A DNA stretch of 64,000 bases from Fulvivirga sp. (lineage in GTDB: Bacteria > Bacteroidota > Bacteroidia > Cytophagales > Cyclobacteriaceae), in contig JANQLQ010000228.1 of assembly GCA_028280565.1 (NCBI GenBank), forward strand, positions 18,549-82,548, given 5' to 3'. Every line of letters starts with the position of its first letter. Position 1 is the first letter of the stretch. The notes beneath the pieces were generated by a model. That model was not told where the DNA came from, ran no database searches, and saw only the letters and a list, made by a program, of their open reading frames with translations. The position numbers and the translations under genes are program-made. Positions 13,071 to 45,549 of this stretch are shown here, one piece after another.

Positions 13071-13109
13071 TGCTATCTTTTTCGTTTTCGGGTCCGGCAA
13101 GATAATATC

Positions 13110-15395
13110 TTATTTCTCAATTGAGAAAGAATAAGGAAAATCTTCCTTATCAGTCCCCCTATTCCTGTTGGGTTCGTCCTTCATATCAAATTCCAGGGTA
13201 CCTCCTTTCATCAGCTCGTTGTGATCCAGGTAATTTTTGGTGCTTACCTTACCGTTGATCTTTAATTCATTCACATAACGGTTTTGAGCGTTATTTCCCG
13301 GAGCATTGATCACAAGTTCGTTTCCATTCTCCAACTGCAGTGTAACTTTCTGAAAAAGCGGGGCTCCTACGACATACTCGTTTACTCCAGGGCATACCGG
13401 ATAAAATCCCATAGCTGAGAATACATACCAAGCAGAGGTCTGTCCGTTGTCTTCATCTCCGCAATACCCATCCGGCATAGGCAGGTACATCCTGTTCATG
13501 GTTTCCCGCACCCAATACTGGGCTTTCCACGGCACCCCGGCATAGTTGTAAAGGTATATCATGTGCTGGATAGGCTGGTTACCATGAGCGTATTGTCCCA
13601 TATCCGCGATCTGCATTTCCCTGATCTCATGTATAACCCCACCGTAATAGCTTTCATCAAATATGGGTGGCAGGTCAAATACTGAATCGAGTTTCATTAC
13701 AAAGTTTTCCTTGCCCCCCATCAGGTCAATAAGGCCCTGCACATCATGGAATACAGACCAGCTATAATGCCAGCTATTACCCTCTGTGAAAGCGTCGCCC
13801 CATTTAAAGGGGTTGAAAGGGGACTGGAACGAACCGTCCTTATTTTTTCCACGCATCAGGCCCGAGGATGGATCGAACAGCTTTTTGTAGTTAAGCGATC
13901 GTTCCGCGTAGTAGTTGATCTCTTTCTTTGGTTTCTTCAACGCTTTGGCTAATTGGTAAATGGTAAAGTCATCATAGGCGTATTCCAGTGTCCTAGCGGC
14001 ACTTTCGTTGATCCCCACATCATACGGCACATAACCCAGCGTTTTGTAATATTCCGCTCCTGCCCTGCCTACTGCGGTCATGGGCCCGGCATTGTTGGCG
14101 CCGTGTATCAGCGCTTCATAAAGTATTTCGATATCGTAGCCTCTCAGGCCTTTGATGTAGGCGTCCGATACCACGGAAGCGGAGTTGTTGCCTACCATGA
14201 TATTGGCATAACCGGGGCTGGACCACTCCGGTAACCAACCTCCTTCCTTAAAATCATTCACTAAACCTGCCTGCATTTCCTTGTTGATAGAAGGGTAAAC
14301 GAGGTTTAGAAACGGGTATAACGCCCTGAATGTATCCCAGAAGCCGGTGCCCGCAAACATATAGCCAGGGAGTATCTTCCCGTTATAGGGACTCCAGTGT
14401 ATCCTCTCATTCTTTTCGTTGATCTCATAAAGCTTGTTCGGAAAGAAAAGGGTCCGGTAGAGACACGAATAAAATGTACTTACCTGGTCAATGGTGCCGC
14501 CCGACACTTTTATCCTGCCCAGCTTATCATTCCAAAGGTCCCTGGCTTTCTTTTTGGTAGTGTCAAAATCATCCTGGGCCAGCTCCCTTTCCAGGTTTAA
14601 CTCAGCCTGCTCTAAACTGATGAAAGAAGAGGCTACCCTTACGTTGATCGTTTCCTGCTTTGAGGTTTTAAAACCAACAATAGCCCCGGCGTGGTTGCCT
14701 TCCATTTCTGTTACACCCTCGGCCAGGTTCTTCCCTTCCCAGGTATGAACATTGTCAAAAGCCTTGTCAAATTTGAGTACAAAATAGTTTTTGAAGTTGA
14801 CCAGTTTGCCCCTGGCGTATTTAGTGGTATACCCGGTGATCTTGTTCTCTTCCGGGATCACTTTCACCCAGGACCCTTTGTCGAAGGGGTCTACCACCAG
14901 GTAAGCACTATCCGATGCCGGAAAGGTAATTTTGAACTGCGCAGCTCTCTCCGTGGGCGTGAGTTCCACGGTCACATCGTGATCGGCCAGGTAGACTTTA
15001 TAATAGTAAGGTTTTGCTATCTCCGCTTTATGAGAGAACCAACTGGCCCGCTCGTCCTGGTCGAACTTCATACCAATGACCGGCATGATCGCGAACTGGC
15101 CGTAGTCATTCATCCATGGTGAAGGCTGGTGGGTTTGCTTAAACCCCCTGATCTTATAGGCATCATAGGTGTACGCCCAGCCATGCCCCATCTTCCCCGT
15201 TTGTGGGGTCCACAAATTCATACCCCAAGGCACCCCTATGGCAGGGTACGTATTACCATTGGATAGACCAGGTTCCGAATCCGTTCCCATCAGTGGGTTT
15301 ACATAGTCAACGGGATCGGAAATTTCGTTTATTATTTGCCCGTAGCCGGATAGGCTTATGGCAAGGAAAAAGAGTAGATGATAATTGAGCCTCAT
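13110..15395 (-). CDS. GH92 alpha-mannosidase (HGNQ variant)
   Basis: This is the second GH92 of the locus, 761 residues. The signal peptide MRLNYHLLFFLAISLSGYGQ is followed by DYVNPLMGTDS. Catalytic-region motifs are TEGNSWHYSWSVFHDV (about residue 537), AHGNQPIQHMIYLYNY (about 602) and CGDEDNGQTSAWYVFSAMGF (about 648). Compared with its neighbour, Glu of HGNE is replaced by Gln, and the GNDD motif becomes GDEDN. This suggests a different linkage preference such as alpha-1,3 or alpha-1,4, or another aglycone (inference). A 245-base gap separates it from the metallopeptidase gene upstream and shows no further gene, so it may carry its own promoter. Confidence 0.93.
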   Translation of the reverse strand: MRLNYHLLFFLAISLSGYGQIINEISDPVDYVNPLMGTDSEPGLSNGNTYPAIGVPWGMNLWTPQTGKMGHGWAYTYDAYKIRGFKQTHQPSPWMNDYGQFAIMPVIGMKFDQDERASWFSHKAEIAKPYYYKVYLADHDVTVELTPTERAAQFKITFPASDSAYLVVDPFDKGSWVKVIPEENKITGYTTKYARGKLVNFKNYFVLKFDKAFDNVHTWEGKNLAEGVTEMEGNHAGAIVGFKTSKQETINVRVASSFISLEQAELNLERELAQDDFDTTKKKARDLWNDKLGRIKVSGGTIDQVSTFYSCLYRTLFFPNKLYEINEKNERIHWSPYNGKILPGYMFAGTGFWDTFRALYPFLNLVYPSINKEMQAGLVNDFKEGGWLPEWSSPGYANIMVGNNSASVVSDAYIKGLRGYDIEILYEALIHGANNAGPMTAVGRAGAEYYKTLGYVPYDVGINESAARTLEYAYDDFTIYQLAKALKKPKKEINYYAERSLNYKKLFDPSSGLMRGKNKDGSFQSPFNPFKWGDAFTEGNSWHYSWSVFHDVQGLIDLMGGKENFVMKLDSVFDLPPIFDESYYGGVIHEIREMQIADMGQYAHGNQPIQHMIYLYNYAGVPWKAQYWVRETMNRMYLPMPDGYCGDEDNGQTSAWYVFSAMGFYPVCPGVNEYVVGAPLFQKVTLQLENGNELVINAPGNNAQNRYVNELKINGKVSTKNYLDHNELMKGGTLEFDMKDEPNRNRGTDKEDFPYSFSIEK

Positions 15396-15640: not shown

Positions 15641-16324
15641 CTATAAGGCAGGGTTTTTACCATACTGTTTCCAGAGTTCGTTTATGTTTCTACCTGTTAG
15701 TTTCTTCCATATTCCATCGGAAAAGTTCCCTGTGCGCATGGCATGATCAAGCCGCTTGACAAATCCCGGGCTTACTTTATTTTCTATCCACAAAAAGAAC
15801 CGGGCAGTGACACGATAGCCATTGTTATAATTCTGATCCGGACTATAACCAGGAAGGAACCAACCGCCCCTGGCGTTATCGCATCCGTACACATACCGCA
15901 CATAGTCAGCTATGCCCTCGGTTACCCACCATGGACCAGCCTGACCAGGATAGGATTGTACAAGGTGCATGACTTCATGGGTTACCAGGTCAAAATCAGC
16001 AGGATGATCCTTTAGCCAATGCGGACTTATCCTCACTCTTCCCCCACCGGCTTCTGCCACTCCCTTGTATTCAGGATCAATTATAAACTCTACTTCCCTG
16101 GCAGTATTTTCATTGTAGTACCTGGCAAGCACCGGATATACGGTAAAGAATGTTTCCACGAGACTATTCTTGACAGCGCCATCAAGACCAACCGCCTTGT
16201 TCACCACAGTCAATGTATATCCTTTCCGCTCATAAACTTCATTGCCGTCCTCTTTGTAGATGAAGGAAACGACAATGAATGATATGAGAACAGATGAAAT
16301 CAGTAATGCATTTTTATTTTTCAT
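15641..16324 (-). CDS. Basic secretory protein (BSP) family putative metallopeptidase
   Basis: This resembles the basic secretory protein family of plants and bacteria, thought to be zinc peptidases. The N-terminus is a membrane-targeting or signal segment (LLISSVLISFIVVSFIY). The core carries THEVMHLVQ at about residues 113-121, an HExxH zinc motif, followed by WVTEGIADYVRY, where the Glu and Asp could complete the metal site. The later segment YRVTARFFLWIENK is also typical. At 227 residues it is the usual size. It sits between a glutaminase-domain gene (43-base gap) and two GH92 genes. BSP proteins recur in Bacteroidota glycan loci, and here the protein may cut the peptide backbone of mannoproteins. 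The substrate is inferred, not shown. Confidence 0.85.
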   Translation of the reverse strand: MKNKNALLISSVLISFIVVSFIYKEDGNEVYERKGYTLTVVNKAVGLDGAVKNSLVETFFTVYPVLARYYNENTAREVEFIIDPEYKGVAEAGGGRVRISPHWLKDHPADFDLVTHEVMHLVQSYPGQAGPWWVTEGIADYVRYVYGCDNARGGWFLPGYSPDQNYNNGYRVTARFFLWIENKVSPGFVKRLDHAMRTGNFSDGIWKKLTGRNINELWKQYGKNPAL

Positions 16325-19005: not shown

Positions 19006-20136
19006 TTACCCCGGGGGACAAACCTGCATGATCCCGACAGCGCTACTGGCCTCATAAGATTGAAAATCACCTTCCGGACATTTTACCCTATAGTCGCGAA
19101 ACATTAAGTTTCGTGCGGTATCCCGGTTTGACCAGGCCAAAGACGCATTTTTCCTCAACCATGCTTCATATTGTTCCTCTCCTTCGTCGATCAGCATATA
19201 TGCATACCGGGCAAAGATCGCTTTCAGAACGCCCTGTTCATTCCAATCTCCTTCGGCTGGCAGAATGCCATCACTATCTGACATTGTACTGTAGGTATAA
19301 TCTGCTGCCAACCTGGCATCATTTAAATAAGACTTACTTCCTGTTATTCTGTACAACATTACAGCCGCACCAATACATACCCCCTGGTTGTACGTATAAT
19401 CCTCAAACCCCGGGGGACTACCATCCACTATATGGTCGGCAACACGGCCAGTCGTCTCCTGGAAGAGTGTTTTTTGGGCCCAGCTATAAATATTCTTCGC
19501 TTTGGCAAGGTATGTATCTTTGCCGGTTATATTGTACAAATACATTGCTGCAATAACCGTTGGGTAATTGATAGCAGCGACTTTTCCTTCTACTTTCCAA
19601 CTCCACCTCATGCCACCATTTACTGCATCAAAAGCCTCTTCCCATACAAAATCAAACCCGTCAATTGCTTTGTCGAGGTATTCCTGGTCTGCTGTAATTC
19701 CGTACCCCCTTGCCAATGCTATTACCCACCACATCATGTCGTCATAAATGAAATCGTTTACGGTTTTGACGTCATTCCAATTAAAATCTGAATATGCATG
19801 GTTCCCGCCCTCATATATTTCCCTGATCATTTCAAGATACCCAGGGTTTTCCGTCCGGAGGTAAGCGTCCATCACAATATCCCAAAATACCGCCTGTGTC
19901 CATCCCTGTGCCAGCTGATCCCGTTTTGTTGTACTGTGATACAGTTTGGCATCCGTATCATAGAAATACTTATTAAATGCATCAAACGCCGTAGTGGCAT
20001 CTTTAGCAGTAAAAGAAACTATTTCCTCCTGGCCTGGGACCTGGGGCCCCGGTCCCTGCTTTTCATCCTTAACATCACCACAACTTGCCCCTATCAAAAG
20101 GCTAAAAATCAATGGGTTAATCTTTCGTGAAATCAT
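19006..20136 (-). CDS. GH76 endo-alpha-1,6-mannanase, lipoprotein
   Basis: This is a GH76 endo-acting alpha-1,6-mannanase, which cuts the backbone of yeast-type mannan. The track start at 20166 precedes ATG 20136 (MISRKINPLIFSLLIGASC), which gives a proper lipoprotein signal with Cys about residue 19; 20136 was chosen. The catalytic Asp pair lies in NDFIYDDMMWW (about residue 130). Supporting motifs are GWTQAVFWDIVMDAYLR, TYNQGVCIGAAVMLYRITG and GILPAEGDWNEQGVLKAIFARY. The lipobox suggests surface display, where it would make oligosaccharides for the SusCD pair upstream. It lies 58 bases after the PorP/SprF gene. Confidence 0.93.
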   Translation of the reverse strand: MISRKINPLIFSLLIGASCGDVKDEKQGPGPQVPGQEEIVSFTAKDATTAFDAFNKYFYDTDAKLYHSTTKRDQLAQGWTQAVFWDIVMDAYLRTENPGYLEMIREIYEGGNHAYSDFNWNDVKTVNDFIYDDMMWWVIALARGYGITADQEYLDKAIDGFDFVWEEAFDAVNGGMRWSWKVEGKVAAINYPTVIAAMYLYNITGKDTYLAKAKNIYSWAQKTLFQETTGRVADHIVDGSPPGFEDYTYNQGVCIGAAVMLYRITGSKSYLNDARLAADYTYSTMSDSDGILPAEGDWNEQGVLKAIFARYAYMLIDEGEEQYEAWLRKNASLAWSNRDTARNLMFRDYRVKCPEGDFQSYEASSAVGIMQVCPPG

Positions 20137-20194
20137 ATTGGTACTCTTATTTATTAGTCTTAACATACCCGGGTGTATTGTATACCAGGTGGGA

Positions 20195-21118
20195 TCAATC
20201 TAGTCTTAGCTGTAATGCAAACTCGAAAGTGCTACCGGCATCTCCATCATATTCCGTTGATTGCGTGGTAAACACTGAGTTAAAAACAACAAGGTCTCTT
20301 ATTTCTACTCCCACGCCGAACGTAGCACTTTTAGAAGTGTGATACATGGTAAAAAAACTCAGCTTTTCATCTAAAAAGTTGATTTGTGCCCCAATATCCA
20401 CTATTTCCTCGTACTCCCTCACTTTCCGATAGAGTGCCCTTGGGGTTAGACCAATAGCATTCACCCCCTCTTTCAACAAAAATTTATAACCGGCAGCTAC
20501 AAAAACCGCAGGCTGTCTTATGGTGGTGATCATGTTTTCCCCATTATCATAGACCAGGGAGCCCAGGTGCAATGCCGAAACCTGGATATTGAGTTTATTC
20601 ATAGTGTATGACACTCCAAAATCGCCATCCAGTTGTATCCCGGTATCGTTAAAATCTGCCACCAACTGATCTCCAGGATCCCCGATTATTTCATCTACAT
20701 TTATAGTTTCATCAACCGCCCCGAAAGACAACCCGAAAGAAAGGTTTTCATGATCTGATAAAGGCAAATGATACGAATAATTAGCCATGAAGCGTGTTCC
20801 TTCCAATATCCCCATCTCCTGTCTGAATACTGCTATGCCCAGACCTACACGCTCGCTGTAACCATAGTCTGCCGTGACGTATTGTGTGTTTGTACCGGAA
20901 CCAATACTGCTGGCTTGCTGCCGGTATGATAATGTGACCTTAAGATCCTCCTCTACACCTGACATGGCAGGATTAATAGCGAACGGATTGAGAAAGTAAA
21001 CAGACCCTGGTGAACTTACCTGGGCATTTCCTTTATGAGCAAAAAACAGCATAAGCAGGCATATGATCACCGACTTAAGGCCCCTGTCGAATACAGATGT
21101 ATATATATGATGTTGCAT
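20195..21118 (-). CDS. PorP/SprF family T9SS-associated outer-membrane protein
   Basis: This is an outer-membrane beta-barrel of the PorP/SprF family, which in Flavobacterium and Porphyromonas helps secretion or surface anchoring of T9SS type B substrates. The signal peptide ends at KGNAQ, and the family opening YFLNPFAINPAMSGV follows. Strands such as VTLSYRQQ, VGLGIAVFRQEMG and LSFGLSFGAVDETINVDEI fit a barrel of about 300 residues. It starts 10 bases after the stop of a gene carrying a type B (gliding-associated) C-terminal domain, which is the classical substrate and partner arrangement. Its placement inside a mannan locus suggests a dedicated translocation or anchoring partner for that surface protein. 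Confidence 0.9.
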   Translation of the reverse strand: MQHHIYTSVFDRGLKSVIICLLMLFFAHKGNAQVSSPGSVYFLNPFAINPAMSGVEEDLKVTLSYRQQASSIGSGTNTQYVTADYGYSERVGLGIAVFRQEMGILEGTRFMANYSYHLPLSDHENLSFGLSFGAVDETINVDEIIGDPGDQLVADFNDTGIQLDGDFGVSYTMNKLNIQVSALHLGSLVYDNGENMITTIRQPAVFVAAGYKFLLKEGVNAIGLTPRALYRKVREYEEIVDIGAQINFLDEKLSFFTMYHTSKSATFGVGVEIRDLVVFNSVFTTQSTEYDGDAGSTFEFALQLRLD

Positions 21119-21128
21119 TTTTTATCGA

Positions 21129-23780
21129 TTAATAATGAAGAATGGTTAATGTTCCCTTAACTATGGGAATACCGGAACCTAAATTGATGATGTAGTAATA
21201 AGTTCCCGGGGATAGTGTGCTTCCCTGGAATGTACCGTCCCAGCTGTTATCATAATCTTCCCGATCAAATACAACACGACCTTCCGGGTCATACACCCTG
21301 ACATGATTGCCCGGATAGGTATTGATATTCCACACAACCCAGGTATCATTTCTTGTATCGCCATTTGGCGTAAGAATATTGCTTGACTCTATGATATAAG
21401 GGCTGCCTTCCATCTGGACAACTGACGTTGCTTCTTTGGTACAACCTTCTGATGTACTGGCCTGCACAGTATATACATGATTTTGATTCGGCTTTATGGT
21501 AATAGCTTCATCGTTCAGGTCACTTAAAATGCCAGGGCCATCCTGCCATATATAGTCGTAATCTCCATCCCCCGTTACGGTCAGCTCTATGATATCGCCT
21601 CGTGGTACCTTCTCTGTGTTATAACTTTTTGTAATATCAATACCTAGCTCATAGGCCGTGACCTTAAACACCCTGCTAAGGCTATCGGTACCGCCATTCA
21701 ATGTTCCTCCATCATCTTTGACGGTTACGGTGACATTTGCCTCTCCCACGATCCCTTCGTTAAGCTTATAGGTGACATCCCCCTTTCCCTCTTTCACTTC
21801 ACTGGCGGAAAGGTTGCTGAACAGGCTGCCATTATCAGTGGTCACCGCCAAACTCAGTTCCTGGTAAGTTTCAGGCCCGGGCGTCAATCCTTCCAGGGGA
21901 ACGGTATAGGTATCCGTATAATTGCAGTTATTTTGATCCGCTAACCCGGCCATGGTTGGTGCCTGGTTAGCTCCCAATGTAGTCACCTGCACCACGGACG
22001 TATAAGGGACCTCCTGGTCTGAGCCGAGACTATAGTCATTGAATGGCCTGACCCTATAGTAGTACAAAGTTGCCACCGTTGCTTCATTGTCAGTATAGGA
22101 AGTACTATTTTCCCCTAACGAAACCACCACTGTGAAATCCTCACCGTCCAAGGAGCGCTCAATATCAAAACCTGTTTCATTATGAGCATTATCTGTCCAG
22201 CTTAATTCTACTTCGGTTTCCGATAACGGTGTCGCGATCAACGACCCGGCCGGGAGGGGAAGGTTTTCATCATAAACAGTGGTGGCTTCTACAATGGATG
22301 AGTAAATAGAATTTCCCGAAGCACCGATCGCCCTGGCTTTGTAATAATAAGTGGTTAATAAATCAAGGTTGTTTTCTGTAAAAAAACTCACATCTATATC
22401 CACGGTATCAATAACTGTAAACGTACTTCCATCGGTGGACCTGGCTATTTCATAACCGGATTCATTGTTTGCCACATCATCCCAGCTGATAGAAATAGTG
22501 TATTCGGTAACCCCTGTAACCATTAAATTGGCTGGTGTGGCAGGTGCATCCAAAGGTATCCCAAATATTTGCCACTCCGCCACCTGGTAGGCATCAGACC
22601 CATGATTTTCGGTCATATTCAGCCGGTAGTATTGATACAGATCGCTATTTGCAAAGGTGAAAGAGCGCTCCTGGAACCGGGATGGAAAACTTTGATCGGT
22701 TTGGGTATCAAGGATTACCCAGTCTGCCCCGTCATTTGACCCCTCAAACGTCCAGTCCCTGGGGTCTCTTGACGGAGCGTCATTTGCGGAAGTAATGCTA
22801 TACTTGGTAACCAGGTGGTTTGAAAACGCAGATTCGGACTCATACTGTGTCCATAAAGTGGGTGTGAATCCTACTAAAAACTTAGTGTTTATATCATTAT
22901 CAATAAATTTCGGAGAGTTTTCATTTTCATTATCGTTCTCCTTGGATACGGTCAATGTACCTCCATCATCGGTGATATCAATAAAGGCACCACTATAATT
23001 CAATGTAGTTACTTCGGTTACCGGGGTAAAATCAGAAGTGCCAAAGGAATTGTAACTGCGGACCTGGTAGTAATAGGTAGTGCCCTGGCTGAGGCCATTA
23101 TCATAATAATTTATTTCATTGGCATTGAGATCAGCGATCTTTTGGAAGGTGATATTATCGGCAGATCTTTCCAGTTCGAAACCACTTTCTACTATACTGT
23201 TATCAGCCCAGGCCAGGAATACTTCATTCCCGGCGGATGATACAGCACTTAGGTTGGTGGGTGCTTCGGGCACCTTTGCCTCCAGCAACCGCCACTCACC
23301 CAACTGAAAAGTACCGGAACCATTCAGTACAGTGATATGTAACCGATAATACTCGTAAGCCACACTGTTTTCAATTTCAAATGCTGTCGTGTTGAATCTC
23401 TCACCCAGCTGCATATTGGAACGGGTATCCAAAACTGTCCAGTCTGTACCATTAAGCGAACCTTCCAGGATCCAGTCCTTGGGATCTCTTTCAGGAGCAT
23501 CATTACCTGTGGTGAGTGTGTATATACCCACTACTGCGGGTGTATTGAGCTGAAATTGTATCCACTGCAGGCCGGGAAAATGCGAAAGGAATTTTGTATT
23601 GATATCATTATCGATCACTTTGGTTGATCCTTCTCCCGCATCGCTACCGCCACCATTTTCTTCGTGAACAGTAAGTGTACCTCCAGTGGCTGTAATATCC
23701 TGCGAGAAACCTTGTAAACCTGCTGCTATGGAAACAGTAGTATTCAGGATGATGTATATTATATGTTTATAAATTCTCAT
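21129..23780 (-). CDS. Discoidin/fibronectin-III multidomain surface protein with T9SS type B C-terminal domain
   Basis: This is a modular secreted protein likely to bind surface glycans. The start at 23780 (MRIYKHIIYIILN) gives a signal peptide; the longer track start adds nine residues. Order of modules: discoidin (F5/8C)-like domain with RDPKDWILEGSLNGTDW (about 30-170), FN3 (about 175-265), a second discoidin-like domain with RDPRDWTFEGSNDGADW (about 270-415), two FN3 domains (about 420-600), a cadherin/Big-like domain (VTVTVKDDGG, to about 705), an Ig/PKD-like segment, and a gliding-motility type C-terminal domain starting SSNILTPNGDTRNDTW (about 797-883). No catalytic domain is visible. 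It lies between SusD and PorP/SprF and may act as a glycan-capturing adhesin. Confidence 0.88.
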   Translation of the reverse strand: MRIYKHIIYIILNTTVSIAAGLQGFSQDITATGGTLTVHEENGGGSDAGEGSTKVIDNDINTKFLSHFPGLQWIQFQLNTPAVVGIYTLTTGNDAPERDPKDWILEGSLNGTDWTVLDTRSNMQLGERFNTTAFEIENSVAYEYYRLHITVLNGSGTFQLGEWRLLEAKVPEAPTNLSAVSSAGNEVFLAWADNSIVESGFELERSADNITFQKIADLNANEINYYDNGLSQGTTYYYQVRSYNSFGTSDFTPVTEVTTLNYSGAFIDITDDGGTLTVSKENDNENENSPKFIDNDINTKFLVGFTPTLWTQYESESAFSNHLVTKYSITSANDAPSRDPRDWTFEGSNDGADWVILDTQTDQSFPSRFQERSFTFANSDLYQYYRLNMTENHGSDAYQVAEWQIFGIPLDAPATPANLMVTGVTEYTISISWDDVANNESGYEIARSTDGSTFTVIDTVDIDVSFFTENNLDLLTTYYYKARAIGASGNSIYSSIVEATTVYDENLPLPAGSLIATPLSETEVELSWTDNAHNETGFDIERSLDGEDFTVVVSLGENSTSYTDNEATVATLYYYRVRPFNDYSLGSDQEVPYTSVVQVTTLGANQAPTMAGLADQNNCNYTDTYTVPLEGLTPGPETYQELSLAVTTDNGSLFSNLSASEVKEGKGDVTYKLNEGIVGEANVTVTVKDDGGTLNGGTDSLSRVFKVTAYELGIDITKSYNTEKVPRGDIIELTVTGDGDYDYIWQDGPGILSDLNDEAITIKPNQNHVYTVQASTSEGCTKEATSVVQMEGSPYIIESSNILTPNGDTRNDTWVVWNINTYPGNHVRVYDPEGRVVFDREDYDNSWDGTFQGSTLSPGTYYYIINLGSGIPIVKGTLTILHY

Positions 23781-23845
23781 TTGTTTGGATTTTATTCGAA
23801 AGAACATAAACTACGCGGGTATGGTAGTTAGTGCCGGTGTGCTCC

Positions 23846-25660
23846 TTACCAACCCGTGTTCTGCACCAGTTTTGTATTTATATTGATCTCGTCCTGTGGA
23901 ATGGGCCACAGATAGTGACGTTTATCAAAAATTCGGGTTTCGAATGGGACCTTATTATAAAAATTATTGATATCCGGAGCATTGATATCCAGGCCGATAG
24001 TAGGTCCGTCAAAAACTTCCTCGGCTATTTTCCATCGTCGTGCGTCGAAATAGCGTACATTTTCAAAAGCTAATTCCACTCTTCGTTCTTTCCTGATAGC
24101 TTCCCGCATGGCGTCTTTGCCGACGGGGGCTTCCAGCTCACTGGAGCCGTATTCCGGAACACCTGCCCTGTTCCTGACCAGGTTAATATACTCCAGGACC
24201 TCCGGGTCCCCTGGAGACGATTCATTAAGCGCTTCTGCATAATCCAGGTAAATTTCAGCCAGCCGCAACATGCTATTGGCCCTGTTCCCACTGGACCAGG
24301 CGCCGAGCCCCATATTCTTCCTAGCAATGTATCCTGTCGGGGAGTAATCATTCCCCCCGGCTTTTCTTCCCGAATTACCCTCAAACCACGTACGTGTGAT
24401 GATATCGCCTGTATTCCGGTTGAGCCATAAGGTATTATCAAAAGTAATACTGGCGTAAAAACGTGGCTCGCGATCCACCCATTGATTAAATATTTCGCGT
24501 TCCGTGAAATCGTAGGGTACCCGGAAACTGGAAAATCCGGATGTTTTATATCCTGATTGTGGGTCGTCGATAGATCTGCCATTGGCCATAAAATATGCAT
24601 CAACCATGGCCTGGGTAGCTCCCAACCCACCACTACCGCGGGCTTCACTTGAGCTGCCCGAATGAAATGGTGTCATTTCATACTGTCTTGATCCTATATC
24701 AGATGCAGGACGGGCCAAAATAATTTCCTCATTCCACTCATCAAGCATTACATCCCTGGTCGATAGATAGGGATCAAACTGTCCCTGGCTGTTGCTCTTT
24801 CTATACAGGTTAAAGGTACCCGGCACAAATTCCGTGATAAACTGCCGGTAGGACTCCGCGGCAGCTCCCCATTTGTCTTCATCATAGCCCTGGCTGATCA
24901 AATGTGCGCCATCATCATTCACCAGGTTGGCATAGTCTGGATTTCCGTTAAACAAAGGGCTGGCTGCCAGTAGTAAAGCCTGTGATCGGATAGCCATGGC
25001 ATAGGGCCTGGTAATTCTCCCATAGGCATCGTCATTCCGGGGAACATTTGGCAGGCCAAGCATGGCTTCGTTCAACTCGCTGACAATGTATTCCACACAT
25101 TCATCAAATGTATTCCTGGGAAGATGGATCTGCTCTACCGGCGCATCAGGTGGAATAGGCGTATCCCCCATCAGTACCACCGGGCCAAATAAGCGTATAA
25201 GATGATAGTAAAAAATGGCCCGCAATGCCCGTGCTTCCGCATGATATTGAAGTTCCAGTTGCGGAACACAATCCTGGCATTCGTATACATTCTGCATAAA
25301 ATAACTTGCATTACGGATCCCCCGGTAAAAATTAGTCCACTTGTCATTGACAAATCCTGTTGTAGGGTTCCAAGTCCCGATGTTCATTTCATTGCTCGAA
25401 ACAAATGACCATACATATTCTGCTTCATCAGACCCACCCGTCCATGGGCCTGCATTGTTGGACAAAAACCTTTGGGATAACTCATCAGGAAGTACGGAAT
25501 AGACGTTGGCCAGGTACTGCTCTACCGTATTCTCCGTGGCAAAGGTCTGATCCAGGGTGAGCCGGTCATCCGGTACCTGGTCCAGGAAATCATTACATGA
25601 AGTAATCAAAGTGATAATAAATACTGTAGTTACTAGTACATATATTTTCATCGTTTTCAT
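23846..25660 (-). CDS. RagB/SusD family surface glycan-binding lipoprotein (mannan locus 1)
   Basis: SusD partner of the adjacent SusC; the genes are 4 bases apart. The lipobox is in IITLITSC (Cys about residue 22), followed by NDFLDQVPDDRLTLDQTF. Other hallmarks are YHAEARALRAIFYYHLIRLFGPVVLMGD, LRLAEIYLDYAEALNES, YINLVRNRAGVP, RKERRVELAFENVRYFDARRWK and the C-terminal YLWPIPQDEININ. At 604 residues it is somewhat longer than the average SusD. The first ATG gives MKTMKIYVLV; starting at the second ATG would trim three residues. The protein should bind mannan fragments at the cell surface and deliver them to SusC. Confidence 0.95.
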   Translation of the reverse strand: MKTMKIYVLVTTVFIITLITSCNDFLDQVPDDRLTLDQTFATENTVEQYLANVYSVLPDELSQRFLSNNAGPWTGGSDEAEYVWSFVSSNEMNIGTWNPTTGFVNDKWTNFYRGIRNASYFMQNVYECQDCVPQLELQYHAEARALRAIFYYHLIRLFGPVVLMGDTPIPPDAPVEQIHLPRNTFDECVEYIVSELNEAMLGLPNVPRNDDAYGRITRPYAMAIRSQALLLAASPLFNGNPDYANLVNDDGAHLISQGYDEDKWGAAAESYRQFITEFVPGTFNLYRKSNSQGQFDPYLSTRDVMLDEWNEEIILARPASDIGSRQYEMTPFHSGSSSEARGSGGLGATQAMVDAYFMANGRSIDDPQSGYKTSGFSSFRVPYDFTEREIFNQWVDREPRFYASITFDNTLWLNRNTGDIITRTWFEGNSGRKAGGNDYSPTGYIARKNMGLGAWSSGNRANSMLRLAEIYLDYAEALNESSPGDPEVLEYINLVRNRAGVPEYGSSELEAPVGKDAMREAIRKERRVELAFENVRYFDARRWKIAEEVFDGPTIGLDINAPDINNFYNKVPFETRIFDKRHYLWPIPQDEININTKLVQNTGW

Positions 25661-25664
25661 GTTA

Positions 25665-28600
25665 TTAAAATTGTAAGTTGAGACCTAGCGAATAGATTGT
25701 GCTGTTGGGGTATCGTGCACCATTGGAAGTGAACAGTTCAGGGTCCCAGGTATCGAATTTGCTGAATGTGAGAAGGTTTACACCTCTCATGTATATGCGC
25801 GCATTTTTCATCTTCAGGACCTGGGCAACATGTACGGGTAAGGTATACCCCAGCTCAGCTGTTTTAAGACGCAGAAAGTCAATATCCCTGAGCCACCACG
25901 TGCTCGCCTGGGTATTGTTACCCTGTCCTATTGCTGAAGAGCCATAAGACAGCCTAGGATACATGGCATTGGGGTCAGGATCTTCTTCCGTCCACCTGTC
26001 CAGCGCTACCTTATACAGGTTGGCTCCTCCTCCATCTCCCTGGAATGGAATTATCCCAGTGCCACTCATGATTATATCTGCCTCCGCCTGCCCCTGGAAA
26101 AACAAGCTCATATCAAAATTACGATAGCCTAAACTGATGCCAAAGCCATAGGTAAGCGCCGGAACATCTCCCTGCCCGATCCGCGAAATATCATAGGCAT
26201 CAATGCGGCCATCTTCATTAAGATCCTTGTATTTGATATCCCCGGGCATTACTTCTCCGAATTGCTCCGCGAACCCCCCATCCTCCGGAGTTATAAAACC
26301 ATCACCATTAGCATCATCTTCAAAAGTAAATAGTCTCTCTGCGGTAAATCCATAGCGCGCCAGTACCGGGTCACCCCTGCGTTCCATCCATGGGTATTGC
26401 TGTCCAGGCTGGCCGTTCTCCAGTATTTTATTCCGGTTGTAGGAAAACGTTCCTCTGAAACCCACGATCAGGTTCCTGAAACTCTTATCAAAATTGATCG
26501 AACCATCAAATCCCTTGTTTTCAACAATACCTATGTTGCCAAAGGGATCAGCATTTAAGCCGATGTAATTCGGTATATCAGCCCTCCCTAAAAAGGCCCC
26601 TTCGGTATATTCCTTAAACACATCAAATATGATCCCCAGGCGATAATTGAACATGTTGATCTCTACCCCCAGGTCCTGCTTGCGCGCCTCTGCCCATGTG
26701 ACATCCACGGCATAGGAATTTTCAAAAATACCATCATACCCGATCCTGTTCTTCCCATAGGTATATCCTCTATCTCCTGCCCTGACCACCTCCCCAATGT
26801 AGGCAAACCTGCCCGCCCCGGAAGCGGACCCTACTTTACCGTCCGTATACCTGATCTTAAGAAAATCAATTACGCCGCCGACAAGAGGCTTAAAGAATTT
26901 CTCATTGGAAATTGCCCAGCCTACCCCGAAAGCCGGGAAGAATCCGTACCTCTGGGAGGGTGCAAAATTCTCAGACCCGTTATAGCCTGCGTTAAACTCA
27001 ACAAAGTACCGGTCATCGTAGGCGTAGGTAACCCTTCCGGCCAATCCCTGGTTTCTGAAGGGTATGGATTCCGTGAAATTATCTGCAAATGCATTTAAAT
27101 AGTCGGTTTTATTGAACAGTAGTAATCCCCCTAAACGATGCTTGTCAAAAGCCCTATCGTAATTGAAGGAGGCTTCCATATAAAACCGCCTGTTTCCTCC
27201 ATTGGAACGTTCATAACCTAGGAAATTTTGTCCCTGGAACGTGGGTACCGTACCCAAGTTCAGGGTCCCGTCCGGGTGCCTTGGGTTATTTACATCTACA
27301 ATCCACGTGTCTTCACGTTTTCCCCTCTGAATGCGATGTTCATTATAGGCATCAAAAGCAAACATGGCCGTGGCGGAAAGTCCTTCGGTTAAACCATCCA
27401 GGTCCTGTGTTACCCGCAGGTTTGAATACAACTGGTTACGATCATGATTCTGATACCCCCTGAGTGTTGCATCAGCATAGGGATTTCTCATACCACCATT
27501 CGGACTTCTTCCGGGAACAAATCCGCCGGGATACATGACCGGATACTCCACCGGGCTCACCTCAAGCGCGCCATTGAATATCGTGTTGGCCGATTCCCCG
27601 GGATAATTACCCACGGACAAATAACCCTGGATCCCCAGGTCCACCTTAGTTGTGGAAGTCAGGTCCATCGTGACATTGGTAGTGACATTGTACCTTGTGA
27701 AACGGGCTTTTGAGTCATATTGCGCCAGGGCGTCAGTATTGTACAGGCCTGTTTCATCGTAATAACCCAATGACACATAATACTTTGAAGTAGCTGAACC
27801 ACCATTTACATTCATGGTGGCCTGCCGGTTGTACCCATAGTCCCTGAACACCTCGTCCATCCAATTGACGTCGGGGTAAACAAACGGGTCATATTTACTT
27901 TCTGTTCTTTCAATGACCTCCTGGCTGAATCTCGGGGCTTCCCCCCTGGTAGTAAGCGCCTCATTGGATAGTTTCATGTAATCGACACCTCCAAGTAGTT
28001 CAGGTGTCTGTGTAAAACGGGTAACGCCCTGGTTAAAATCAAACGTGATCGTTGGCCTGCCTTCCTTTCCTTTTTTGGTATTTATCAGGATCACCCCATT
28101 GGCTCCCCTGACACCATACACCGCGGTGGCTGAGGCGTCTTTTAGAATACTGAAGGATTCAATATCCTGGGGGTCTATATTATTCATCGACCGTTCCACG
28201 CCATCCACAAGGACCAGTGGACTACTACCCCCGCTCATGGTGGAAATACCCCTGATCCATATATCCGCCCCATCATAACCCGGCTCTCCCGATCTCTGGA
28301 CACCGGTTATGCCTGCAAGGCGTCCTGCCAGCATGGTACTGATATTGGCCACGGGATGATCCAGTTCACGGGCAGGAATACTGGATTGGGCACCAGTAAA
28401 GCTGATCTTTCTCTGTTCTCCAAAGCCTACTACAATGACCTCTTCGAGTGACTGGATATCCTGTACTAGGCTGACATCTATGCTATTTCGGTTTGCAATG
28501 GGTATTTCCTCCACCTGGTACCCAACAAAACTGAAAATCAAAACCCCATCAGCCGGCGCTTCGAGCGAATACCTGCCATCTGAATTGGTAATAGTGCCCA

Positions 28601-29078
28601 GGTTGGTGTCTTTTATCCGCACGTTGACACCGGGTATTCCTTCACCATTGTCTGTTACGGTACCCGTAACCATTATATTTTGAAAAACAACCTCTATATT
28701 GCCTTTTGAATAGGCATTTTTCATTTTTTTAACGTTTATGAGGTTGTTGACTTGTCTGAAACGCAGATCGGTGACCCGCGAAATTTTTACCAGGATGTCA
28801 TTAACAGAAAGCTTTCCGGATATATCAATCCGGGCTTTACGATCTACGTGGCTTTTGTCATAGATAAAGCTGAATTCTGTTTCCTTTTCTATGGTTTTAA
28901 ATATCTCAAGGATAGAAGCACTCCTGGCATCCATTTCTACAAATACCTCCTTGACGCTCCTGTTCTGTGCCTTTCCGTTACTCGCCGCCAGGACCCCCGC
29001 AAAAAATATTTGTAAAAAAAAACCATACAACAATAATTTCGAGCTCATTATAAGTAAGAACTGTAGATGATTTCTCAT
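25665..29078 (-). CDS. SusC/RagA TonB-linked transporter with STN domain (mannan locus 1)
   Basis: This is a full-length SusC-type transporter (1137 residues) of the signalling subtype. After a signal peptide (FFAGVLAASNGKAQ) comes an STN domain (about 45-115, EIFKTIEKETEFSFIYDKSHVDR), which contacts FecR. A carboxypeptidase-D-like domain follows (VTGTVTDNGEGIPGVNVRIKDT), then a TonB box (EEVIVVGFGEQRK, about residue 215), plug motifs (DADIWIRG-like segment, SILKDASATAVYGVRGANGVILINTKKG) and the barrel ending in YSLGLNLQF. STN together with the upstream FecR and sigma genes means induction by trans-envelope signalling when substrate binds. The 148-base gap to FecR contains hairpins and a possible antisense RNA. 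Confidence 0.96.
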   Translation of the reverse strand: MRNHLQFLLIMSSKLLLYGFFLQIFFAGVLAASNGKAQNRSVKEVFVEMDARSASILEIFKTIEKETEFSFIYDKSHVDRKARIDISGKLSVNDILVKISRVTDLRFRQVNNLINVKKMKNAYSKGNIEVVFQNIMVTGTVTDNGEGIPGVNVRIKDTNLGTITNSDGRYSLEAPADGVLIFSFVGYQVEEIPIANRNSIDVSLVQDIQSLEEVIVVGFGEQRKISFTGAQSSIPARELDHPVANISTMLAGRLAGITGVQRSGEPGYDGADIWIRGISTMSGGSSPLVLVDGVERSMNNIDPQDIESFSILKDASATAVYGVRGANGVILINTKKGKEGRPTITFDFNQGVTRFTQTPELLGGVDYMKLSNEALTTRGEAPRFSQEVIERTESKYDPFVYPDVNWMDEVFRDYGYNRQATMNVNGGSATSKYYVSLGYYDETGLYNTDALAQYDSKARFTRYNVTTNVTMDLTSTTKVDLGIQGYLSVGNYPGESANTIFNGALEVSPVEYPVMYPGGFVPGRSPNGGMRNPYADATLRGYQNHDRNQLYSNLRVTQDLDGLTEGLSATAMFAFDAYNEHRIQRGKREDTWIVDVNNPRHPDGTLNLGTVPTFQGQNFLGYERSNGGNRRFYMEASFNYDRAFDKHRLGGLLLFNKTDYLNAFADNFTESIPFRNQGLAGRVTYAYDDRYFVEFNAGYNGSENFAPSQRYGFFPAFGVGWAISNEKFFKPLVGGVIDFLKIRYTDGKVGSASGAGRFAYIGEVVRAGDRGYTYGKNRIGYDGIFENSYAVDVTWAEARKQDLGVEINMFNYRLGIIFDVFKEYTEGAFLGRADIPNYIGLNADPFGNIGIVENKGFDGSINFDKSFRNLIVGFRGTFSYNRNKILENGQPGQQYPWMERRGDPVLARYGFTAERLFTFEDDANGDGFITPEDGGFAEQFGEVMPGDIKYKDLNEDGRIDAYDISRIGQGDVPALTYGFGISLGYRNFDMSLFFQGQAEADIIMSGTGIIPFQGDGGGANLYKVALDRWTEEDPDPNAMYPRLSYGSSAIGQGNNTQASTWWLRDIDFLRLKTAELGYTLPVHVAQVLKMKNARIYMRGVNLLTFSKFDTWDPELFTSNGARYPNSTIYSLGLNLQF

Positions 29079-29226: not shown

Positions 29227-30273
29227 TTAAAATTTAAGTTCAACATTTTTTCCAGTGATCTCGAACTCCAGGTCGTACGTAAAACCCAAGCTATTCAAGA
29301 CCTGCTCCAAGGTCTTATTTTCAAAACGCCCGTTCACCTTCCATTGCGAGTGAGGCTGACCGCTAGTTTTGATCTTTACTCCATACCACCGCTCAAGTGT
29401 TACAATTACTTCTTGCAGGCTGTTATCCTTAAATACCAGGATACCATCTTTCCAACCGAATGTGATCAGTGGATCAATCCTCACCTTTTCGATCTTATTG
29501 CCACCCTGGGAGATCATCAACCCCTCTCCAGGATCCAATACTTGTCCCTGGGAGTTGCTGTCGTTTAGTTTTTTGACTTTCACCTTACCGGTTTTTAGTG
29601 ATATCTCCAGGCGGTCCTCACCATCGAAAGCCCTTACATTGAAGGAAGTTCCTAGCGCGGTGGTCACGATATCCCTGCTGATCACGTTAAATGGCCTGCT
29701 TACGTCGGGTTTTACCTCGAAAAAGGCCTCTCCCTCCACTCTTACCGTTCTGCTGTGTTTCCCGTAGTCAGAATCATAGGTTAGCCTGCTGTCAGCGTTA
29801 AGGATTACCCGGGTCCTGTCAGGAAGTAGTATAGTGGATTTACGCCCCTGCGGATTTTCCTTTTTAATTATGGCCAGTTGCTCATTTGCGTTCTCACTTG
29901 TTTCCTGTAGTGAACTCTTCCACCAAAGGACACCCAGGCAAATCAGCAGGAATGACGCTGCTATTTTGTAAAATAATTTCGTTGATCGCAGGCGCTTTCT
30001 TTTAGGATCAAACTCCGAAGGACCTGTTTTTATCGAAGTTTGGGCGATAATATTCGACAGGATCTTATCTTTATCCCCAGGCTTAAGCGGGAACTTCCGG
30101 TACTCCAAAGACCTTAAAAACTCGCGGGCAGCATTTACCAACTCCACTTTATCCGGGTTATTCTCAAGCCGCTTGTTCCAAAAGAGATCCCGTTCGTAGG
30201 TAGGTTCCAGGATCCACTTTCTAAAGTCTTCATTGGCAAGCAACTCGATCAATGTGTCTTTGTCGTTCTTCAT
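29227..30273 (-). CDS. FecR-family anti-sigma factor (mannan locus 1)
   Basis: This inner-membrane anti-sigma regulator would hold or activate the cognate ECF sigma factor and receive the signal from the STN domain of SusC. The N-terminal cytoplasmic part (1-100) is followed by a single membrane helix (LFYKIAASFLLICLGVLWW, about 108-126). The periplasmic FecR domain carries RTVRVEGEAFFEVKPDVSRPFNV and TTALGTSFNVRAFD. The C-terminal DUF4974-like part carries LQEVIVTLERWYGVKI and the terminal FEITGKNVELKF. The 348 residues are normal. Unusually, a TlpA-like gene stands between it and the sigma factor. The 5' leader (30283-30375) is duplicated in front of that TlpA gene. Confidence 0.95.
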   Translation of the reverse strand: MKNDKDTLIELLANEDFRKWILEPTYERDLFWNKRLENNPDKVELVNAAREFLRSLEYRKFPLKPGDKDKILSNIIAQTSIKTGPSEFDPKRKRLRSTKLFYKIAASFLLICLGVLWWKSSLQETSENANEQLAIIKKENPQGRKSTILLPDRTRVILNADSRLTYDSDYGKHSRTVRVEGEAFFEVKPDVSRPFNVISRDIVTTALGTSFNVRAFDGEDRLEISLKTGKVKVKKLNDSNSQGQVLDPGEGLMISQGGNKIEKVRIDPLITFGWKDGILVFKDNSLQEVIVTLERWYGVKIKTSGQPHSQWKVNGRFENKTLEQVLNSLGFTYDLEFEITGKNVELKF

Positions 30274-30516: not shown

Positions 30517-31659
30517 TTACCTGATTTCAGTGATATCAACGTGTAAAAGAGCAGGAACCAGCTCCAGCCCGTAGGTTGTTAGCAAATAGTTTTTGGCGCT
30601 GTCAAAAGACGCATGGGGAAACCTGAATTCAAATAAGCCATTTAATTTGGTTTTATCAGTAATATAGGTTCCAAATCTGTTTTCCAGTTCCCTCGCTAAA
30701 TCCATCACCCCCACACCTTCCCCTTTCCAAAAGGTTCGACCAGCAGAAACCCCGGTACCATTATATACGTGTCTATGATTGATCGCATTGGCCCTAAAAG
30801 CACTGTCATTGCTTAATACCAGGTCAAAACCATTTACCTGCTTTGGTTTGATCTTCATTTCAAGAGATAGCTCATCCAATAAAGCCCTAGTAATTGCCTT
30901 TTTAACATCAGCCCGTGATAATTCCTTTGGAATTTTAAAACGAATATCATAACGATTCATATCCGCGACGAGGATCCTGCTTTTGCTTTTTTGAAGAAGA
31001 AATTCCAATACCTGGTCAAGCGATTGATTAACGATGCTTAATTCCGTCGGGTTGAACTGCATACCCGACGCTCCTTCCATATAGTTATTTTTGGAGATGG
31101 TAATGGGGTAACGAGGCTCCTGGTCCAATTCACTGACCCAATTTGATACAGAGGTACTTTCAAAGGTTAGCACTTTTGAATAATACTGTTTTTCGAGTAC
31201 CACATCGATCAGCCCGGTGTCCAGGTGCGAGGGATACCCTGCCCACCGCAAAATGCCCTCTTTATCGATCAGAAAGGTCGTAGGATAACCCCCTACCTCA
31301 AAGGCTTTTATCGTTTTGTAGGTACTGTCCACGCCTATGTTCGCAAACATGATCTTCTTAGAAAGAAACTCCTGTATCCCAGGCCTTTTTTCATAGGTAA
31401 TCGCAACGAAAACTATACTATCGTCTTTATAACGTTCGGCTAGTTCGTTCAAATGAGGGATGGTGTAAACACATGGGGCACAATGTGTGAACCAAAAATC
31501 CAAAACCACCGCCTGGCCTTCCATTTTCTTAAAGTCCTGGTGCGGATTATCGATCCATTCGTCTACCAGGATTGCAGGAGCCTTTTTGCCAATTTCTGTT
31601 TGAGCAAGAACATCCAAGGCAATCAATACTAAAATATTCGTGAGTATACTTCTTGTCAT
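30517..31659 (-). CDS. TlpA-like thioredoxin fused to a DUF3738-like C-terminal domain
   Basis: This is an exported thioredoxin-fold protein. The signal peptide ends near LDVLAQ. The TlpA domain (about 20-165) has VLDFWFTHCAPCVYTIP with the CAPC redox site at about residues 60-63 and a cis-Pro region GGYPTTFLID. The C-terminal half resembles the DUF3738/TIGR03435 domain: FDLVLSNDS, then GVGVMDLARELENRFGTYITDKTKLNGLFEFRF. The gene lies between the ECF sigma gene (32769) and FecR (30273) on the same strand and is preceded by a copy of the FecR leader. This suggests it belongs to the same regulon and may influence the signalling step or folding of cysteine-containing PUL proteins. Its function here is unknown. 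Confidence 0.85.
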   Translation of the reverse strand: MTRSILTNILVLIALDVLAQTEIGKKAPAILVDEWIDNPHQDFKKMEGQAVVLDFWFTHCAPCVYTIPHLNELAERYKDDSIVFVAITYEKRPGIQEFLSKKIMFANIGVDSTYKTIKAFEVGGYPTTFLIDKEGILRWAGYPSHLDTGLIDVVLEKQYYSKVLTFESTSVSNWVSELDQEPRYPITISKNNYMEGASGMQFNPTELSIVNQSLDQVLEFLLQKSKSRILVADMNRYDIRFKIPKELSRADVKKAITRALLDELSLEMKIKPKQVNGFDLVLSNDSAFRANAINHRHVYNGTGVSAGRTFWKGEGVGVMDLARELENRFGTYITDKTKLNGLFEFRFPHASFDSAKNYLLTTYGLELVPALLHVDITEIR

Positions 31660-32070: not shown

Positions 32071-32769
32071 TTAATCACCCGGACTGTCGATCATATACAT
32101 CAACAAAGGTAAGATAGCAGGACTCTCTGCCGCAGCCATGAAAACAGCAATAACAAAAAGTTCTTTTAATTTTCCCAAGGCTTTATAAAGCAAACTCCTC
32201 GCAGATTTTACATGCTCATATCCCATGAGCTCTGCGATGGATCGATAATCCATATTTTGATAGTAGAAATAATAGATTATCTCTCTTTCTTTGAAGGAAA
32301 GCTTTTTAATGCTCATTCTCAGACGCTCTTCCCTTAATTCCCTGGTCTGAAGATTAACAATATTTTCTTCCGTAGAAGGTACGGGAACAAACATGTTTCC
32401 CTTCACAGCGTCCATGGATTTATGAGTAAGATCTTTTTTAAGGTAAGACATTAGCCTGTTCCTACAAGATCTGAGTAAATAGAGCTTGATGTTATCCGTA
32501 ACGGAAATAGATTCTCTTTTACTCCTGGTAAAGATAAAAAGGTCCTGCACGCAGTCTTTGATGAGGTCCTCGTTTTGTGTAAACTGGTAACAATAGTTAA
32601 CCAGCAGCTCAAAATACTGCTGGTAGATAAAAACAAAAGCAGCCTCATCCCCACGCTTAAAGGCTTTCCATATTTCAATATCGCTTTTACCTTGCTGGCT
32701 TTTTTTCCCATGGCGTAGATCACGGGCGTTTCCGCCGAGGGTCAAATGATGTTTCTTTTTATCATTCAT
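32071..32769 (-). CDS. ECF-type RNA polymerase sigma factor (mannan locus 1)
   Basis: This sigma-70 family extracytoplasmic-function factor probably drives locus 1 under FecR control. Region 2 is seen in FVFIYQQYFELLVNYCYQFTQNEDLIKDCVQDLFIFTRSK (about 55-95), and region 4 in MSIKKLSFKEREIIYYFYYQNMDYRSIAELMGYEHVKSARSLLYKALGKLKE (about 153-205). At 232 residues it is longer than average, with a charged N-terminal extension (KKKHHLTLGGNARDLRHGKKSQQGK). After region 4 it has a hydrophobic tail of about 28 residues (VIAVFMAAAESPAILPLLMYM) that could touch the membrane or FecR. It is separated from FecR by the TlpA gene. Confidence 0.92.
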   Translation of the reverse strand: MNDKKKHHLTLGGNARDLRHGKKSQQGKSDIEIWKAFKRGDEAAFVFIYQQYFELLVNYCYQFTQNEDLIKDCVQDLFIFTRSKRESISVTDNIKLYLLRSCRNRLMSYLKKDLTHKSMDAVKGNMFVPVPSTEENIVNLQTRELREERLRMSIKKLSFKEREIIYYFYYQNMDYRSIAELMGYEHVKSARSLLYKALGKLKELFVIAVFMAAAESPAILPLLMYMIDSPGD

Positions 32770-41518: not shown

Positions 41519-42655
41519 TTATTCCAACCTGGTGGCAGCTTCTATGAGCATTATCCCACTGAGCAGGGTGGAGAAGTCAACCGGACCTTCCGGACGCCTT
41601 CGCCAGTTAGGTCCACAGAGCATCGAAGGTCTGCTTATTCCCTTTTCATAAAGTGTTTCAGCATTGAACTGAAAGAACCTGAGGAAATTCTTTTTATCGC
41701 TATCATCTAGGCCAGGTAACTGGATCAATTCAGTAAAGTACCTCACTAGTATTCCCTTAAAGAGCCCACCATCTCCTTGGCCTTCGTCCCTAAGTAGCCC
41801 TTCTGTTGTGAGTTTGGGACTTGTCATCATGGAAGTAGCCGTTTTTACTGCCTCGTTAAGATAAAACCCATCGCCTGTTACTTTATACAATTCTGTAGCT
41901 GCGCCGATATAGGTTCCGATATTGTAGGTAAAGATCCAGTCCTTATTGATCTTCACCTCGCCGTCCACGAGGTCAATATTGTCCCATACCAGGCCTGTCA
42001 CCGGGTCAACCAATGTGTTTTTTTGCCATGAAAATATGTCTTTGGCCCATTGGAGGTTCTCTTCATCCCCCTCGATATTATACAGTCTCATTGCCAAAAT
42101 AGCCGCCGGGGCATTAGAAGTAGCATTTTTACCGTTGGGTGTATTGATCTTCCAGGTGATCCCTCCGCCATAAAGATCGCTCCAGCTTTTTTTGATCTCC
42201 TCCCACAGTAATTTGGCAATGTCCAGGTAGAATGGATCGTCTGTAGCCTTGTACACCCTGGTACAGGCCAGTGCCAGCCACTGCATATCATCATTAAAAT
42301 CATTGGGATATTTCCCTCCGTTCCGCACTTCTATGCCCTGGACGAGGGCCTTGATCCTGGAGATATACACGTCATTTTGGGTACGTAAATAACCATCCAG
42401 CAGTACATCTACCATATGAGCATTCCACCAATAGTTAAAAAACTCGTCGCCCTGGTTATTATGCCTGAAGGTACCGTCGGACGCCAGGTAAGTGGTGTAG
42501 GCAGCTTCCTGCATGGAATCTGCCGTAGCCGACCAGGTGTATTCGATCTCCACCCGGGAAGTTGGGTCCCGCAACGGGCCCAAGTCTTCATCGGCGCAGG
42601 CTCCGCAAAGAATTACGATCAAAAGAACTAGTATATAAGTATCTGAAAACTTCAT
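41519..42655 (-). CDS. GH76 endo-alpha-1,6-mannanase, lipoprotein (mannan locus 2)
   Basis: This GH76 backbone-cleaving mannanase is probably surface-exposed: the lipobox LIVILCGAC places the acylated Cys at about residue 20. Family features are FFNYWWNAHMVDVLLDGYLRTQN, the catalytic Asp pair in NDFNDDMQWLALAC (about residue 122), GGGITWKINTPNGKNATSNAPAAILAMRLY, FTYNIGTYIGAATELYKVTG, LRDEGQGDGGLFKGILVRYF and the terminal GIMLIEAATRLE. At 378 residues it is complete. It follows the SusE-like gene after 96 bases and precedes the GH125 relic. It is distinct from the GH76 of locus 1, which ends in a different C-terminal segment. Confidence 0.93.
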   Translation of the reverse strand: MKFSDTYILVLLIVILCGACADEDLGPLRDPTSRVEIEYTWSATADSMQEAAYTTYLASDGTFRHNNQGDEFFNYWWNAHMVDVLLDGYLRTQNDVYISRIKALVQGIEVRNGGKYPNDFNDDMQWLALACTRVYKATDDPFYLDIAKLLWEEIKKSWSDLYGGGITWKINTPNGKNATSNAPAAILAMRLYNIEGDEENLQWAKDIFSWQKNTLVDPVTGLVWDNIDLVDGEVKINKDWIFTYNIGTYIGAATELYKVTGDGFYLNEAVKTATSMMTSPKLTTEGLLRDEGQGDGGLFKGILVRYFTELIQLPGLDDSDKKNFLRFFQFNAETLYEKGISRPSMLCGPNWRRRPEGPVDFSTLLSGIMLIEAATRLE

Positions 42656-42751
42656 TTATCTGGAATTTTTTAATTGTCAACAGGCTTTGTGAATTCTATC
42701 TGGATGGAAGCACCTTCCAAATGGATCTTCCGCCAAACCCTATGAATCATA

Positions 42752-43873: not shown

Positions 43874-43912
43874 TTTATTAAAGTGTTAAAGTATTAAGAG
43901 ATGGCAGCACAA

Positions 43913-45538: not shown

Positions 45539-45549
45539 GATTTTCCGAT

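Follow-up and report, generated by a model that had tools for sequence, protein, structure and literature searches.

What is a T9SS type B cargo protein, followed by its own PorP/SprF-family barrel, doing between the susD and GH76 genes of a mannan operon? This question is raised by a 64,000-nucleotide stretch of DNA from Fulvivirga sp., which we call the window. The features that bear on it are as follows.

32071..32769, minus strand: ECF sigma factor (sigma70-ECF TIGR02937, 58.6 bits, cut-off 42.9)
29227..30273, minus strand: FecR-type anti-sigma factor (PF04773 and PF16344)
25665..29078, minus strand: SusC/RagA TonB-dependent transporter (TIGR04056, 994 bits)
23846..25660, minus strand: SusD-family glycan-binding lipoprotein (PF07980, 200 bits)
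21129..23780, minus strand: T9SS type B cargo, 883 aa (Pfam and NCBIfam matches; kept in 8 genomes)
23271..23699, minus strand: CBM32 domain D1 of the cargo, predicted sugar-site residues E50, D94 and R98 (numbered from the ATG at 23780)
22548..22988, minus strand: CBM32 domain D2 of the cargo, predicted sugar-site residues E287, D334 and R338
21141..21389, minus strand: type B C-terminal sorting domain (CTD) of the cargo (CHU_C / TIGR04131)
20195..21118, minus strand: PorP/SprF-family outer-membrane barrel, 307 aa (PF11751, 158 bits; TIGR03519, 153 bits, cut-off 90.55)
19006..20166, minus strand: GH76, endo-alpha-1,6-mannanase family (PF03663, 141 bits)
10767-13100 and 13110-15395, minus strand: two GH92 alpha-mannosidase-family genes (PF07971, 602 and 587 bits)

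Read along the minus strand, the order is ECF sigma factor, thioredoxin/DUF3738, FecR, SusC, SusD, type B cargo, PorP/SprF and GH76, and the same operon continues 3' of GH76 with a GtaA/DUF5127 protein, a BSP-family peptidase, the two GH92 genes and a GH43. The genes at the core of the operon are closely packed, with 4 bp between susC and susD, 10 bp between the cargo gene and porP and 28 bp between porP and GH76; the gap from susD to the cargo gene is 38 or 65 bp, depending on which start codon is chosen for the latter. A promoter and terminator scan placed no minus-strand terminator between any two genes of the run from susC to GH76. Its promoter-like sites were no more frequent than in shuffled sequence, and the scan is uninformative for Bacteroidota promoters. 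The N-terminus of SusC carries a weak STN-like signalling domain, which at E = 0.003 does not reach the Pfam cut-off. In the gene at 30517-31659, which lies between those for the sigma factor and FecR, a thioredoxin/AhpC-TSA domain is fused to DUF3738; this fusion is absent from the other loci read.

The earlier note had described a discoidin/FN3 protein with a type B CTD between susD and GH76, with PorP/SprF 10 bp further on, and the Pfam and NCBIfam searches confirm this. The full open reading frame (21129-23807, minus strand) encodes 892 aa and an internal ATG gives the 883 aa product. Orthologues start at the internal ATG, therefore the end coordinate 23780 is correct, as had been given earlier. 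Pfam finds F5_F8_type_C (38 bits) and two stretches of fn3, while the CTD is matched by CHU_C (72.5 bits, cut-off 27, residues 807-879) and by TIGR04131 of NCBIfam (55.3 bits, cut-off 35), these matches together spanning residues 807-889 of 892. The architecture is thus a signal peptide, CBM32 (D1), FN3, CBM32 (D2), two further FN3 domains, a linker and the type B CTD with which the protein ends; the lipobox cysteine is absent from its N-terminus, MRIYKHIIYIILNTTVSIAAGLQGFSQ. In a full-length model the domains are visible, with the CTD poorly modelled (pLDDT about 40-70), and we left this model out of the fold comparison because its overall confidence is low (pLDDT 71.9, pTM 0.36). The label "adhesin", under which the protein was first noted, is too generic, as the gene lies beside susC and susD in their direction, at the site usual for a surface glycan-binding protein, and is kept there in 8 genomes.

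The type B/PorP pair as such is ordinary. The 9.05-Mb genome contains 19 full PorP/SprF genes, and a type B CTD lies directly upstream of 14 of them. In all, type B CTDs are matched 27 times in the genome and SusD 74 times. By every feature that could be tested, the cargo and PorP of the window appear to belong to this kind. SprA is encoded in the same genome (contig C15, 2514 bits); the PorP sequence has no match in the PDB. In F. johnsoniae, type B cargo requires a cognate SprF-like shuttle (PMC12618676) and SprF is bound by SprB (PMC9143113). By analogy, we propose that this PorP/SprF protein is dedicated to the type B cargo, as its cognate shuttle and its anchor.

What is unusual about this particular pair is its position. 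A profile of the window PorP was run on 297 sampled family genomes and recovers orthologues in 8 of them, and in a PorP tree the eight group together, with an SH-aLRT of only 63. All eight genomes with this PorP clade have the order SusC-SusD-cargo-PorP, with the caveat that the G010 contig stops within susD; wherever the sequence extends far enough, SusC has FecR and sigma genes next to it. The cargo-PorP spacing is 8-11 bp in every locus, and the order is unchanged at identities down to 34% for PorP and 42% for the cargo. By comparison, among 101 further PorP loci, 18 of them from this genome and 83 from seven related genomes, none has SusD within 6.5 kb, the nearest being about 8 kb away; these background loci are separate regions, some cut by contig ends, and SusD was detected in them by profiles grown from window proteins, which a very divergent SusD could escape. 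As the eight genomes are related, the eight loci are not eight independent events. That said, 8/8 against 0/101 rejects chance adjacency and indicates that the pair is specifically and heritably tied to SusCD. The earlier note had weighed its occurring equally in unrelated contexts, and this is not what is seen for this PorP clade. The telling point is that the SusCD-cargo-PorP order persists while the downstream genes change: GH76 follows the module in four of the eight loci, and elsewhere a rhamnosidase-type gene (G194), an HExxH lipoprotein or an unassigned protein is found.

Some further genes of these loci deserve mention. The BSP-family peptidase of the window (15641-16324, PF04450) lies inside the mannan operon and recurs in the orthologous loci of G010, G004, G212 and G191, as well as in loci of the lipoprotein type, described below, in G580 and G995, and the G656 copy forms a fusion with the CBM32. 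Its recurrence suggests mannoprotein or N-glycoprotein substrates. The HExxH lipoprotein, of about 310-320 aa with the motif HEIGH or HEVGH, is found in related mannan loci of G004, G1011 and G995 (L076:682-1611 on the minus strand, L222:14557-15522 and L223:7771-8742), and adjoins the BSP-family peptidase in G004 and G995. It has no NCBIfam match, the G004 copy has no Pfam match either, and it is possibly an uncharacterised metallopeptidase acting on mannoproteins. The window also holds a second SusC-SusD pair with two further genes (41519-48930). Homologues of all four lie near the G004 copy of the cassette and, in G572, next to GH92, so this locus and the mannan locus may have related glycan targets. 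In G463, which belongs to another family, a very large type B cargo (>3000 aa), PorP, SusC, SusD and GH92 run in one direction (L095:1889-21442). This PorP lies outside the clade of the window PorP, and here a type B/PorP pair may have become linked to a GH92 locus a second time, independently.

What might the cargo bind? Each of the eight orthologues has both discoidin domains. A profile built from these 16 domains matched a single PDB sequence, the GH92 alpha-1,2-mannosidase NnGH92 (7nsn), at both of its CBM32s (122 and 91 bits, 211 bits in all). Structure prediction for the discoidin domains gave D1 a CBM32 fold (pLDDT 89.8) that is nearest to the same protein: the top Foldseek match is 7nsn_A (TM 0.91, E 1e-15, 38% identity), and several further CBM32 structures are among the next matches. 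In the crystal structure, the N-terminal CBM32 of NnGH92 holds mannoimidazole, a mimic of mannose, through contacts with Glu105, Asp148 and Arg152 and stacking on Phe122, while its authors could not demonstrate mannan binding by the NnGH92 CBM32s in solution (PMC10167667). Equivalents of Glu105, Asp148 and Arg152 are found in all eight D1 domains and in all eight D2 domains, except for one Glu-to-Gln change. Both domains therefore have an intact predicted sugar site, and given the solution result for NnGH92 the conserved residues amount to a site prediction.

The specificity of CBM32 domains varies. The glycan capture supposed by the earlier note fits the company that this subfamily keeps, as it is found on mannose-active enzymes and on lipoproteins of mannan loci. 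At E 1e-10 it is matched in 12 of 396 genomes across the phylum, its hosts including GH38, GH85 and GH18/EndoS-like enzymes and the lipoproteins of GH92/GH76 loci. The note had also read the RDPxDW block shared by D1 and D2 as a sign of internal duplication, which is unsupported. Although D1 and D2 are the sole matches to the profile in the Fulvivirga genome, a tree with related CBM32s does not unite the 16 domains in a single clade (AU p = 0.022); the test, on short domains with long branches, leans against duplication and no more. Nearly all relatives have the block in question (NDAxxRDPxxW), to which the Asp and Arg that contact the sugar belong, and a subfamily-wide motif is no sign of duplication within one protein.

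A further comparison comes from related Bacteroidota whose SusD is 46-60% identical to that of the window, and where a lipoprotein with the same CBM32 adjoins SusCD. For example, G596 has FecR, SusC, SusD, a CBM32 lipoprotein (183 aa, lipobox VSTC) and GH76 in a row, as well as GH92. Its SusD is 60% identical to that of the window, higher than those of the cassette-bearing G212 and G191 (56%). A lipoprotein combining BT_3987-like_N with CBM32 lies 3' of SusD in G580, and in G1011 and G995 SusC is preceded by a CBM32 protein of 186 aa whose N-terminus resembles that of a lipoprotein. The T9SS and lipoprotein states are interleaved on the SusD tree, whose well-supported branches require two or more changes between them; changes of anchor in either direction and gene transfer fit this tree equally. 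As both anchors are seen within a single CBM32 subfamily and a single SusCD lineage, the anchor looks like an exchangeable part.

Gene content, order and conservation, the identity of the domains, their site residues and the CBM32 lipoproteins of related loci were observed directly. From these we infer how export, anchoring, binding, cooperation with SusCD and regulation could fit together. In our judgement the cargo is probably a surface glycan-binding protein that has type B T9SS export and a shuttle of its own instead of a lipid anchor. The cargo would be exported by Sec and its CTD recognised at the SprA translocon; the PorP/SprF barrel would then pick it up and hold it non-covalently in the outer membrane. 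It should be displayed there, by analogy with F. johnsoniae and P. gingivalis, because type B cargo stays bound to its shuttle and SprA is present. The two CBM32 domains, spaced by FN3, may bind mannan or mannoprotein by its mannose ends close to SusCD; GH76 and GH92 would trim the chain and SusCD would import the products. Induction of the locus would probably run through SusC, FecR and the ECF sigma factor, as in trans-envelope induction. Points against this reading are the varied specificity of CBM32 domains, the solution result for NnGH92, the change of enzyme next to the module, as in G194, and the poor modelling of the CTD.

One alternative is that the cargo is a mobile gliding adhesin whose expression is tied to mannan, its CTD riding on a moving track and serving attachment or gliding on mannan-rich surfaces rather than feeding SusCD. 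In F. johnsoniae, type B cargo is static when its operon includes a PorE homologue, and the cargo proteins seen moving lack one (PMC12618676). A PorE-like neighbour is found at 0 of the 8 orthologous loci and 35 of 108 other PorP loci (one locus counted twice), a weak contrast, the more so since the eight are related, which is suggestive of a mobile cargo and compatible with it, not decisive. The genome has a GldJ-like gene, although even its top match to GldJ falls short of the curated cut-off. We consider this reading unlikely, as the lipoprotein counterparts, having neither CTD nor PorP, argue that the shared role is binding near SusCD. A structural scaffold that organises SusCD and the enzymes on the surface, with CBM32s adding little glycan binding, seems to us quite unlikely. 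Deletion of CBM32 in NnGH92 damaged the enzyme rather than clearly lowering mannan binding (PMC10167667), and for CHU_1279 of C. hutchinsonii the presence of the protein matters more than its binding; on the other hand, the sugar-contacting residues are kept in both domains across 8 genomes. The cargo might also ride the T9SS/gliding track via its dedicated PorP and sweep mannan chains along the cell to SusCD. If true, such a capture protein would join the motility machinery to polysaccharide uptake, and we hold this to be very unlikely. That a type B/PorP cassette landed beside SusCD without any functional tie is highly improbable: the spread is patchy and such pairs are common, but order and tight spacing hold at 34-42% identity while the downstream genes differ, and the CBM32 type appears to fit the substrate of the neighbouring enzymes.

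Returning to a surface glycan-binding protein exported by the T9SS, both halves of this arrangement are known. In a search of mainly open-access literature, no paper was found to describe them together as a type B/PorP pair within a SusCD locus. Accounts of characterised loci generally present surface glycan-binding proteins (SGBPs) as lipoproteins, and the type B T9SS cargo characterised to date is described as adhesins.

The pairs SprB/SprF and Fjoh_3952/Fjoh_3951 of F. johnsoniae and PG1035/PorP of P. gingivalis likewise consist of a type B CTD cargo and a PorP/SprF protein, with the barrel of the F. johnsoniae pairs encoded directly downstream, as here (PMC12618676, PMC9143113). In the accessible parts of these sources, the studied pairs are gliding or attachment adhesins or have no known role, and linkage to SusCD is not mentioned. 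The window cargo differs in having CBM32 domains and in lying inside a SusCD/GH76 operon, and its predicted sites suggest alpha-linked mannose as a ligand for a type B cargo. The chitin locus of F. johnsoniae also encodes a T9SS cargo inside a PUL (PMC5127042), but ChiA is a soluble enzyme, was later assigned a type C CTD (PMC10202324) and is not part of a type B/PorP pair. The N-terminal CBM32 of NnGH92 is the closest solved structure and has the same sugar-contacting Glu, Asp and Arg, although it is part of a Neobacillus novalis enzyme and not a separate surface protein.

The SGBPs of Bacteroidota PULs, and CHU_1279, are alike in their SusD-adjacent position, modular all-beta build and glycan-binding domain; the window cargo has type B T9SS export and a dedicated PorP in place of a lipid anchor, and so probably works like an SGBP without being a classical lipoprotein one. 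The CBM32 lipoproteins of G596, G580, G1011 and G995 belong to the same subfamily and lie beside related SusC/SusD, with GH76, GH92 or the BSP-family peptidase in most. They differ in having a single CBM32, a lipobox-like N-terminus and neither CTD nor PorP, and in G1011 and G995 they lie upstream of SusCD, not downstream. The window and G596 thus form a matched natural pair for asking what T9SS export adds, be it reach, size, release or movement. The slot that a small lipid-anchored sugar-binding protein fills in relatives here holds a larger T9SS-type protein with its escort, an arrangement kept across several genera.
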